Source of the DNA: Caminibacter pacificus
Lineage (GTDB): Bacteria; Campylobacterota; Campylobacteria; Campylobacterales; Nautiliaceae
NCBI RefSeq assembly: GCF_003752135.1
Contig: NZ_RJVK01000002.1
Location: forward strand, 62,001-126,000
Length of the DNA stretch: 64,000 nucleotides
Direction: 5' to 3'
Under the pieces are notes generated by a model. It saw only the letters and a program-made list of their open reading frames with translations, did not search any database and was not told the origin of the DNA. Shown here piece after piece: positions 27,354 to 40,089 of the stretch (position 1 is its first letter; each line of letters opens with the position of its first letter). A program made the translations under genes and the position numbers.

Positions 27354-27672
27354 GGAAGAGTGAAATGGGGAAAGTCGGAAGAGATGGGGAAGAGAGAAGG
27401 CTAGAGAGGGAAAATGATGGTGAAATTGTGAATTTGTGAAATTATGAATCAGTGAGTTAGTGAAATTAAACAACCCGAAACAATTACAAAATTTAATGGA
27501 AAAAAAGCATTAAAAAAAGCACACAAGCTTGAAAAGGTCTGTGCTTTTTAGCTTTTTTGTAGTGGCTAAAATTTGCTCTCTTGTTGAGGGTGATTAATTT
27601 TTTATATTGTGATTTGAAACTATGAATTGTGAAATTGAAAATAAAATATAAAAAGTATCGAAAGAAGGAAAA
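27354..27672 (+). repeat. Full copy (copy A) of the GTGA-octamer/hairpin repeat element after hemL
   Basis: This gap has no gene. It starts with a purine-rich stretch (27354-27420), then an 8-bp-period array of GTGAAATT/GTGAATTT-like units (27420-27467). Next comes a ~122-base core (27470-27592), then looser GTGA units (27605-27640) up to the ribosome binding site of the AtpZ-like gene. The same arrangement occurs inverted at 38700-38988. A shortened copy lies at 35341-35510 and a remnant at 40090-40202. Confidence 0.85.
27470..27592 (+). ncRNA. Structured core of repeat element, copy A (possible RNA)
   Basis: The whole core folds as one interrupted hairpin. The outer ACCC/GGGT is separated from AACAA/TTGTT by opposed GA dinucleotides. 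Then AAATTT pairs with AAATTT, AAAAAAGC with GCTTTTTT, and the apical AAAAAGCACA with TGTGCTTTTT. Copy B at 38784-38905 differs at about ten positions by eye, mostly in loops or bulges, while the central 54 bases are identical. It could be a 3'-UTR structure, a terminator or a small mobile element; no RNA family is recognised. Confidence 0.5.
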
Positions 27673-35340: not shown

Positions 35341-35510
35341 TTGTGAAATAGTAAAATGATGAATCAGTGAAATTGTGAGTTTGTGAGTTTGTGAAATCGA
35401 AAAATTGTAAAATTAAACAACCAAAGACAATTGCAAATAATGGAAAAAAACGTAGGGTTGTTATTAGTTAAAATTTGATATAGTGAGTTTTGAAGTTGTG
35501 AAATTATCGG
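35341..35510 (+). repeat. Shortened copy (copy C) of the GTGA-octamer repeat element after dprA
   Basis: An 8-bp-period GTGA array (35343-35395) is followed by a core that aligns with the left and right ends of copies A and B (AAACAACC, ACAATTGCAAA, AATGGAAAAAAA, then TTAAAATTTG). The central GCACA hairpin is missing. Instead AACAACC (35417-35423) pairs with GGTTGTT (35455-35461). Another GTGA stretch follows up to the ribosome binding site at 35508. Confidence 0.7.
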
Positions 35511-37743: not shown

Positions 37744-38566
37744 TCCTCAGCCTCAAATAATATTGGTTGATAAAATCGCTCTTTTTAGCAAGATATCCGG
37801 TTAAATTTTCAACCTCGGTTTTATTTCCTTTTTCAAAATCGATTTGCATACTCATTTTACTTTCATACGGAATATTTAAAGCCTGTTTTATTACTTTTTC
37901 TTTCTCTTCACTTAAATCAACACCCTCTTCTTTTGCAATTTTTATCACTTCATCGAGAAATTTTTCAACCTCATCTCTTTTTTGTTCCATAATCCAACCG
38001 GTAGGCTTTTGATAGTAGCTTTGAAGGGTAGCGAAAGTAGATATAAAAAGATATTTTTTCCAAATATCTTTTTTAATATCTTCACTAAACTTAACTTTTA
38101 AATCACACCCCTCAAAAGCTTTTCTAACTACCTCGTCATCCTCCACACACAGATAAAAAAGAGGAGTTTTTTTATGGATAACGTTAATATCTTTTTTGTT
38201 TGAGAGGATATAAATACACGCTTTTAATAATTTTACGTTTAAATTTTCAAACTTTTCAAAATGCCCTATTCCATTTAAAATAGGAACGACTCTTGTATTT
38301 TCATTTGAGTGATTTTTTATTAACGGCAAAATATTATCGATATTATATGACTTTACCGTGACAAAAATTAAATCGTAAATTCCTTTTATCTCCGTCTTTG
38401 GAAAAACAATCTCTTCTTTATCGACATCTATAACTTTTAAGCCCTCTTTTTTGATTGTTTCTATCGTTTTTTTAGTCGCGCTAATCGTTACGTCTTTGTT
38501 GCATTTTATAAGTTTATAAGCAAGATATCCTCCGACTCCTCCAACACCGATTACTAAAATTTTCAT
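37730..38566 (-). CDS. 2-dehydropantoate 2-reductase-like protein
   Basis: An ApbA/PanE-family NADPH oxidoreductase. The Rossmann motif is LVIGVGGVGGYLAYKL, VTVKSYNIDNILPLI follows, and the C-terminal domain contains the lysine/asparagine region around KKYLFISTFATLQSYY and KMSMQIDFEKGNKTEVENLTG. The latter matches the family's pantoate-binding SSMxxD pattern. It could make pantoate for CoA; panE homologues with other substrates exist, so the symbol is withheld. Its start overlaps the stop of a 33-residue gene (ATGA). Confidence 0.85.
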   Translation of the reverse strand: MKILVIGVGGVGGYLAYKLIKCNKDVTISATKKTIETIKKEGLKVIDVDKEEIVFPKTEIKGIYDLIFVTVKSYNIDNILPLIKNHSNENTRVVPILNGIGHFEKFENLNVKLLKACIYILSNKKDINVIHKKTPLFYLCVEDDEVVRKAFEGCDLKVKFSEDIKKDIWKKYLFISTFATLQSYYQKPTGWIMEQKRDEVEKFLDEVIKIAKEEGVDLSEEKEKVIKQALNIPYESKMSMQIDFEKGNKTEVENLTGYLAKKSDFINQYYLRLRNGVK

Positions 38567-38664
38567 TTTTTACCCTTTATTTTTTCAGCAATTATTACAC
38601 CTATCGTAATTCCCAAAAAAAACAAAACCAAAAAAATCTCACCTACCAAATCCTTAAATTCCAT
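38563..38664 (-). CDS. 33-residue single-span membrane microprotein
   Basis: A short open frame from ATG 38664 to TGA 38563, below common size cut-offs. The product has a charged start (MEFKDLVGE), one hydrophobic helix (IFLVLFFLGITIGVIIA) and a basic tail (EKIKGKK), a good N-out/C-in single-span topology. AAGG lies six bases before the start. Its TGA overlaps the panE ATG (ATGA), the coupling used throughout this genome. No function is recognised. Confidence 0.6.
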   Translation of the reverse strand: MEFKDLVGEIFLVLFFLGITIGVIIAEKIKGKK

Positions 38665-38988
38665 TTATTACCTTATCCCTTATCCATTTTTTAATCATTT
38701 TCCAATTTCCCAATTTCACAAACTCACTATTTCACTATTTTTTTCACTATCTCTAACATTTACTAATTTACACAAAAATTAACCACCCTCAACAAAAGAG
38801 CAAATTTCGACCACTACAAAAAAGCTAAAAAGCACAGACCTTTTCAAGCTTGTGTGCTTTTTTTACGCTTTTTTTTCATTAAAATTTGCAATTGTTTCGG
38901 GTTGCTTAATTTTACATTTATATCAACTCTTCAATTTCACTAACTCACAAATTCACAAACTCACAATATCACCATCTCTTCCCCTCTC
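38665..38988 (-). repeat. Full copy (copy B) of the GTGA-octamer/hairpin repeat element after trmA
   Basis: Read on the minus strand after the trmA stop: a purine-rich stretch and an array of GTGATATT, GTGAGTTT and GTGAATTT units (38984-38935). The core (38905-38784) and a second, looser GTGA array (38760-38700) follow. Order and sequence match copy A after hemL. The remaining ~35 bases before the microprotein gene show nothing else. Confidence 0.85.
38784..38905 (-). ncRNA. Structured core of repeat element, copy B (possible RNA)
   Basis: The same long hairpin as copy A. Here GCAAATTT pairs perfectly with AAATTTGC, where copy A has a different register with one mismatch. The bulge between the two A-rich stems reads GT rather than ATT. 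Apical stem AAAAAGCACA/TGTGCTTTTT and loop with CAAGCTTG are unchanged. Function unknown. Confidence 0.5.
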
Positions 38989-40089
38989 TCACCCATCTCT
39001 CTCAAGAACTACTCCGCACTCCATATGATTCGTATAAGGAAATTGATCGAAAAACGCAAAAGCTTTTATTTTTCTACCTTTGGCAAGAGTTTTCAAATCT
39101 CTATGCAAAGTTTCGGGATTACAAGAGATATAAATAATATTTTCAAAACTATTAACAAACTCTCTTGATTTATCATCAAGTCCCGCTCTTGGCGGGTCGA
39201 TAAGTACGTTTTTTAAATCATAAGAAGAAAGAAGAGGTGAGTTTTCTTTTTTAAGTTGAGAAAATTCAGCCGCACTCATTGCCAAAAAAGTAATATTATC
39301 TCTATTGTTAATTTCGGCATTAAACGTTGCGGCTTCTATTGATTCTTTATTTATTTCTGTTGCAATTACTTTTTTGAAGTTTTCACTAAGAGGAATGGTA
39401 AAGTTTCCGTTTCCGCAATAAAGCTCGACCAAATCGCCTTTTAAATGAGACGAATTTCTCAAAGCCCACTCTATCATTTTTTGATTCATTTGACGATTCG
39501 GCTGAGAAAAGGTATTTTCGATAATTTTATATTTGTAAGTTTTACCGGCTACGTTTAATTCTTCTATTAAATAGTTTTTATCAAAAACGTATTTTCTGCC
39601 CTTCTTTCTAACGATAAAATCTACGTTTTTAAATTTTTCTTTTAATTTTTTAATATCTTCCGCAATGCTCTCATCAACTTTTTTGTGGTATATCAAAGTT
39701 ACGATAAGTTCGCCTTTCGAATTACTTAAAAAATCAATTTCATAAAGCTTGAATCTAAGATTTTCGTTTTTTTCTATTTCTCTTAAAAGCGGATTCATTA
39801 TCTCGTATATCGCTTTATCTACGATTTTACATTCCTCAATAGGAATAACGCCTCTGCCGTCTTCTTTTCTCTTTCTCATGGCATAAAAACTTTTATCTCC
39901 CTCATGCCAAACTCTAAACTCTGCTCTTGCTCTAAAATGCTCGTCACTTCCGTGAATCACTTCGATTTGAGGAATCTCAAAATCACTAAACATCTCTTTT
40001 AATCTTTCGCTTTTCATCTTAAGCTGCTCGCTATAAGGCATCTGCCATAATACGCAACTTCCGCACTTTCCAAAACTACTACAAGTCAT
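38989..40089 (-). CDS. trmA: tRNA (uracil(54)-C5)-methyltransferase
   Basis: Makes ribothymidine in the T-loop of tRNAs using SAM. SAM-binding motif LVELYCGNGNFTIPL, then LIDPPRAGLD and the catalytic cysteine in YISCNPETLHRD, which are diagnostic of the RumA/TrmA family. An N-terminal C-x5-C-x2-C group (C3, C9, C12) suggests part of an iron-sulfur or zinc site, as in RlmD; a role on 23S rRNA is therefore not excluded. Length 366 residues, as E. coli TrmA. Confidence 0.85.
   Translation of the reverse strand: MTCSSFGKCGSCVLWQMPYSEQLKMKSERLKEMFSDFEIPQIEVIHGSDEHFRARAEFRVWHEGDKSFYAMRKRKEDGRGVIPIEECKIVDKAIYEIMNPLLREIEKNENLRFKLYEIDFLSNSKGELIVTLIYHKKVDESIAEDIKKLKEKFKNVDFIVRKKGRKYVFDKNYLIEELNVAGKTYKYKIIENTFSQPNRQMNQKMIEWALRNSSHLKGDLVELYCGNGNFTIPLSENFKKVIATEINKESIEAATFNAEINNRDNITFLAMSAAEFSQLKKENSPLLSSYDLKNVLIDPPRAGLDDKSREFVNSFENIIYISCNPETLHRDLKTLAKGRKIKAFAFFDQFPYTNHMECGVVLERDG

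Follow-up and report, generated by a model that had tools for sequence, protein, structure and literature searches.

The window analysed here is a 64,000-nucleotide stretch of the Caminibacter pacificus genome (contig NZ_RJVK01000002.1), and the interval 27354-27672 within it is exactly the intergenic gap between hemL and atpI. This gap holds one copy (copy A) of a structured element, and a second, inverted copy (copy B) lies between trmA and a panE-like gene. The preliminary description had reported a near-exact inverted copy of the core 11 kb away, and we confirmed this: the core at 27470-27600 (130 bp) is 92% identical to the inverted sequence at 38776-38904, with a centre of 54 identical bases. 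We also agree that there is no open reading frame inside the A/B core and that the element belongs to no known RNA family, with no Rfam match at gathering level across the window, or at E<=1 for four related loci. An unlisted ORF of 33 residues, membrane-like in sequence, lies at 38563-38664 on the minus strand between trmA and the panE-like gene and is conserved at the equivalent position in 12 related genomes. The features are listed in Table 1, where each copy is assigned the strand that carries the A-rich 5' arm.

Table 1 Features of the two element copies and their surroundings, in window coordinates
Feature	Positions	Strand	Basis
Element copy A	27455..27615	+	covariance-model R1 match G000:C2:89455-89615, 143.5 bits
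Element copy B	38761..38920	-	covariance-model R1 match G000:C2:100761-100920, 150.6 bits; fold z -4.9
5' GA of opposed GA/GA pair, copy A	27477..27478	+	sequence; 93-98% conserved in 95 copies
3' GA of opposed GA/GA pair, copy A	27586..27587	+	sequence; 91-98% conserved in 95 copies
Apical module, copy A	27500..27559	+	alignments A3/A4, pair counts
8-mer array (GTGAATTT-like), left of copy A	27417..27468	+	repeat search, TRF
Remnant of like 8-mer sequence, right of copy A	27605..27655	+	repeat search D1/D2
8-mer array flanking copy B	38697..38761	-	repeat search, TRF
8-mer array, other side of copy B	38926..38990	-	repeat search, TRF

Copies A and B each fold, as had been proposed for the whole core, as one interrupted stem. 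The fold of copy B has an energy of -43.3 kcal/mol (z -4.9, with none of 200 shuffles as good), while copy A reaches -31.2 (z -2.4, one of 200 shuffles as good), a weaker fold owing to two broken pairs in its helix 3. The claim that differences between the copies keep pairing therefore stands in part and fails at these two pairs. The opposed GA dinucleotides noticed earlier are present, and the apical module of copy A comprises, in order, the X stem, CATTA (CGTTA in most copies), an A-tract, the Y stem GCACA/TGTGC with its loop, TTTTTAG and the X' stem.

The element is approximately 150-165 bp long and is present in about 16 copies in the window genome, which rules out a chance repeat. The copy closest to A is 95% identical, so the amplification is not recent. 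A covariance model (R1) built from 34 copies finds the element in 19 of 21 genomes from the taxonomic family. Across the order it has matches in 36 of 399 genomes, including some from other families; in the weakest of these, the apical module is the sole common part. An exact two-arm pattern searched over 84,980 species returned nine matches, all in Nautiliaceae metagenome genomes, and phage and plasmid records and viral contigs gave no match to the element. We looked for loss of the stem elsewhere and for the absence of more copies, and instead found many further copies in which the stem is preserved through compensatory changes, as expected of the dispersed repeat with a long conserved hairpin core that had been described. 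A cis-regulator of a single locus was rejected, as the neighbouring genes differ and orientation is random. Shared neighbour genes were dropped as proof of vertical inheritance, since several coincidences are expected by chance among the ~58 copies. Two genera have the same copy flanked by the same pair of genes (L014 and L033), with proteins 91-97% identical, which suggests horizontal transfer of this segment.

Degenerate 8-mer arrays (GTGAATTT / GTGAAATT) flank about 10 of the 16 copies, A and B included. The array to the left of copy A does not belong to the element in other genomes, an array at 35341-35414 has no element core, and elsewhere in the family comparable arrays are found without the element.

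The hairpin structure is real. A MAFFT alignment of 34 copies (A1), which unlike alignment A3 was not fitted to the model, has 91.7% of cells paired versus 82.4% after shuffling, and 25 pairs with double changes. Among 95 copies (alignment A3, fitted to the model), 93.7% of pair cells are paired (80.6% shuffled), compensatory double changes are seen at 39 of 46 pairs, and the covariation is 0.392 versus 0.164 in shuffled data and at most 0.075 when partners are slid by 1-3 columns. Many unpaired core bases in these 95 copies are as conserved as paired ones (91-98% for GA/GA and 98-100% for several A residues), and variation is free in the apical loop (58% conserved) and flanks (46%). From the covariation and the conserved unpaired bases, we infer that the inner hairpin is maintained by selection. 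The covariation could instead be a DNA by-product of a neutral palindromic repeat, with hairpin-templated (quasi-palindrome) correction rather than selection keeping the arms paired. In keeping with this, the outer arms change in perfect step without wobble asymmetry, and entire arms differ between copies yet match (L093, L094, L035/L087). However, such correction should erase mismatches and bulges, and almost every copy retains GA/GA, GTTA opposite A, and TT opposite ACTC; moreover, the apical loop and flanks are saturated, but the unpaired core bases are not. We consider this an unlikely account of the pairing, and part of the compensatory changes could stem from hairpin-templated repair. 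The outer arms of the copies in the window genome, and of those in several other genomes, have departed from the canonical end yet still pair, as in L093 (AAAGTATAGACTCCATA/TATGGAGTCTATACTTT). Selection on pairing, co-evolution of the ends with a transposase, or hairpin-templated repair can all do this.

Intact relatives of the element carry terminal inverted repeats GGYACTGACTAAATA at both ends. Exact 8-bp target duplications lie beside these canonical ends at no fewer than seven independent loci of the relatives (AAGAAAAG, AAAATAAA, ATTAATCC, AAAGAAAA, ATTAATTT, CAAATTAA and TTTAATTT). Neither canonical ends nor target duplications were detected for the copies of the window genome, whose arms have diverged and still pair. 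Empty sites in sister genomes, which had been suggested as a check, were found for both window copies. The hemL-atpI gap is 323 bp here versus 3-115 bp in 13 other syntenic genomes, where the stop and start of the two genes often overlap, and the gap between trmA and the panE-like gene measures 426 bp versus 93-219 bp in 12 other syntenic genomes, so that an insert of element size is missing at both sites. The window inserts include the 8-mer arrays around the core, and the boundary positions are therefore approximate. The element is thus short, non-coding and multicopy, with inverted ends and constant-length duplications in its relatives and empty orthologous sites, which are the features of a miniature inverted-repeat transposable element (MITE). 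We conclude that it is most likely a MITE, a non-autonomous transposon that is old in the window genome and was probably mobilised in trans by an IS1-like transposase.

A candidate for this partner is found in a genome of the same genus (G002), as six identical 684-bp insertion sequence copies with ends GGCACTGACCTAAAA and 8-bp duplications. It has two overlapping frames, the second of which is an IS1-type DDE domain. The candidate, 684-715 bp in length, carries an N-terminal helix-turn-helix ORF (HTH_38), and its similarity to PF03400 (24.6 bits) lies barely above the cut-off of 24.1, while that to NF033558 (E 1e-8, 35 bits) is below the NCBIfam equivalog cut-off of 100. The exact end GGCACTGACTAAATA adjoins the same kind of transposase in G002 and G019, and does so with one change in G032. 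A search of the window genome gave no exact end GGCACTGACTAAATA and no IS1-like gene, and so we infer the link between element and partner from the shared ends and the duplication length. The partner gene was likewise undetected in most genomes with canonical copies, many of which are fragmented metagenome assemblies. At a site upstream of uvrA (L102, L015, L088), two genomes have the element, and the third (G002) has an IS1-like remnant that shares its end. We rejected descent of the element interior from an IS1-like element, as no R1 match lies inside IS1-like elements and the matches are other hairpin elements; the ends are the sole part that element and partner have in common.

We propose that the element is a short non-coding transposable DNA that folds over its full length into one interrupted hairpin, and that an IS1-like transposase with the same ends most likely cuts or copies it in trans. 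Insertion occurs into intergenic gaps, including those of tight operons such as hemL-atpI, as the empty sites of sister genomes show. The family in the window genome is an old one, its partner transposase gone and its outer arms drifted but pairing. The tip, an A-tract/T-tract hairpin with flanking stems, is a module carried also by MITEs with very different ends.

The copies are intergenic and their orientation to genes is unbiased. The A-tract and T-tract lie on opposite arms of the apical hairpin, which suggests a two-way terminator. A scan for consensus terminators, defined by a GC-rich stem, a short loop and a T-run, passed over the apical hairpin of both A and B, owing to its long loop. 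Tentatively, the tip may act as a two-way transcription terminator or insulator, and such a function could make intergenic insertions tolerable or useful. A small RNA is a rather less probable function for the tip, and a role in transposition seems unlikely. Ordinary intrinsic terminators or REP-like palindromes, alike through their A+T-rich composition, would also have an A-tract and T-tract on opposite arms, and some weak matches to a model of the apical part (R2) in distant genomes are short and single. This is contradicted for the full element by similarity over the full 150-165 bp (E down to 1e-53 by blast for a non-self copy, and to 3e-31 by the model), by defined ends with duplications and by lineage-specific insertion, and we regard it as very improbable; isolated weak R2 matches may be plain terminators.

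Alternatively, the copies could be a dispersed family of structured small-RNA genes, transcribed from the strand with the A-rich 5' arm and multiplied only secondarily. The core helices have a strand-asymmetric wobble, with 115 G.U versus 32 A.C cells, and parsimony assigns 70 G.U versus 31 A.C events (p 1.3e-4), although these events are not fully independent and an element of this length yields a weak tree. This excess is suggestive of a core selected as RNA on that strand, as is the conservation of unpaired core bases of a small-RNA role, for which MITE-born small RNAs of Coxiella, described in PMC5896051, offer a precedent. However, G.U is not in excess in the outer arm (31 vs 29) or the apical helix (13 vs 21), and RNA folding, which guided part of the choice of pairs, is itself biased towards G.U; a sibling family treated in this way has 12 G.U versus 4 A.C events. 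Nor does this reading fit with mobility, as seen in exact 8-bp duplications and empty sites, with the lack of a clear promoter in A or B or with the lack of orientation bias to genes. We consider a small-RNA gene family doubtful, and retain the MITE as the preferred reading.

The apical module, of ~68 nt, has the arrangement X-CGTTAAAAAAA-Y...Y'-TTTTTAG-X', often with the loop ACCCGNARGGGCGCTTGCGTT, and both X and Y covary. The sequences of alignment A4 were picked by a pattern that requires pairing, so the evidence lies in the varied pair types and not in the percentage paired. The R2 model has matches in 60 of 399 genomes, from about 21 genera. We initially treated weak R1 matches in G056, G058 and G087 as unrelated and rejected this, since the apical module is common to them and the rest is not. 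The module is found on long-hairpin MITEs with other ends and with 8-, 10- and 7-bp duplications. A sibling core of ~205 bp has ends GGTACTGACTAAATA or GGCATTGACTAAATA with 8-bp duplications (L263, L274), and the same core has ends CAGGGCTGTTTCATGC with 10-bp duplications at five loci of G015; in G087, an element with the module bears CTGATGTTACGCACTTT at its ends and has a duplication of 7 bp. In G015, the sibling core's old end is partly retained inside the new CAGGGCTGTTTCATGC ends and 10-bp duplications (L279-L290), and in L283 additional inverted layers lie outside these, which suggests nested end capture. The apical part is longer in L045 (G015:C77), where a second hairpin, built to the same CGTTAAAAAAA...TTTTTAG plan, is nested in the apical loop. 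The hairpin appears to have been exchanged between transposon ends. It is conceivable, and we offer it with caution, that the tip, as a structured RNA or a two-way terminator, is a functional module open to exchange and adopted by several unrelated end systems of Campylobacterota, with selection acting on the module and the ends replaceable.

Beyond the preliminary description, our analysis supports a transposon family, a candidate IS1-like partner and a hairpin tip common to other elements. MITEs are usually regarded as passive products of deletion from a single insertion sequence. In the present family, the inner hairpin is conserved pair by pair across bacterial families while the transposon ends around it change, and the same core occurs with 8-bp and 10-bp systems, so that a MITE with a selected cargo, terminator or RNA, becomes testable. 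If true, replaceable ends would reverse the usual view of a MITE as the decayed remnant of one insertion sequence. The covariance model is ready for the annotation of an unlisted Campylobacterota repeat superfamily, and the IS1-like partner is a candidate for a transposition assay.

A literature search of a limited collection gave no description of the element, and we compared it with known systems. The candidate partner resembles the IS1 family (PF03400, NF033558) in its IS1-type DDE domain, two overlapping frames and 8-bp duplications, and differs in its weak similarity, HTH_38 N-terminal ORF and length. ERIC and Correia elements typically have TA as target duplication, versus 8 bp here, which sets them apart by description; their ends, and the ends and duplication length of RUP, also differ from those of our element. 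ERIC and Correia are imperfect palindromes of about 100-170 bp between genes, across related genera (reviewed in PMC10969869), and by description our element is like them in size, imperfect palindrome, intergenic dispersal and presence in several related genera. REP/RAYT (REPIN) sequences, which are GTAG/CGTC-tagged palindromes with a RAYT transposase gene, are set apart by description, as our element exceeds them in length and has inverted ends and duplications of constant length. In Streptococcus pneumoniae, RUP shares ends with IS630-Spn1 and SPRITE is terminator-like; both are short intergenic repeats with strong secondary structure, like our element, and are distinguished by description through other ends, another partner transposase family and hosts outside Campylobacterota, and the excerpts of PMC3049150 that describe them do not mention a structured module common to families with different ends. 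QMITE1 and QMITE2 of Coxiella burnetii are MITEs, of which one combines a conserved core with variable ends, and some give rise to small RNAs; compared by description, they differ in host, and excerpts of PMC5896051 report no covarying structure across many genera. Our element is a MITE in kind, and its unusual trait is an inner hairpin module conserved across different transposon ends.
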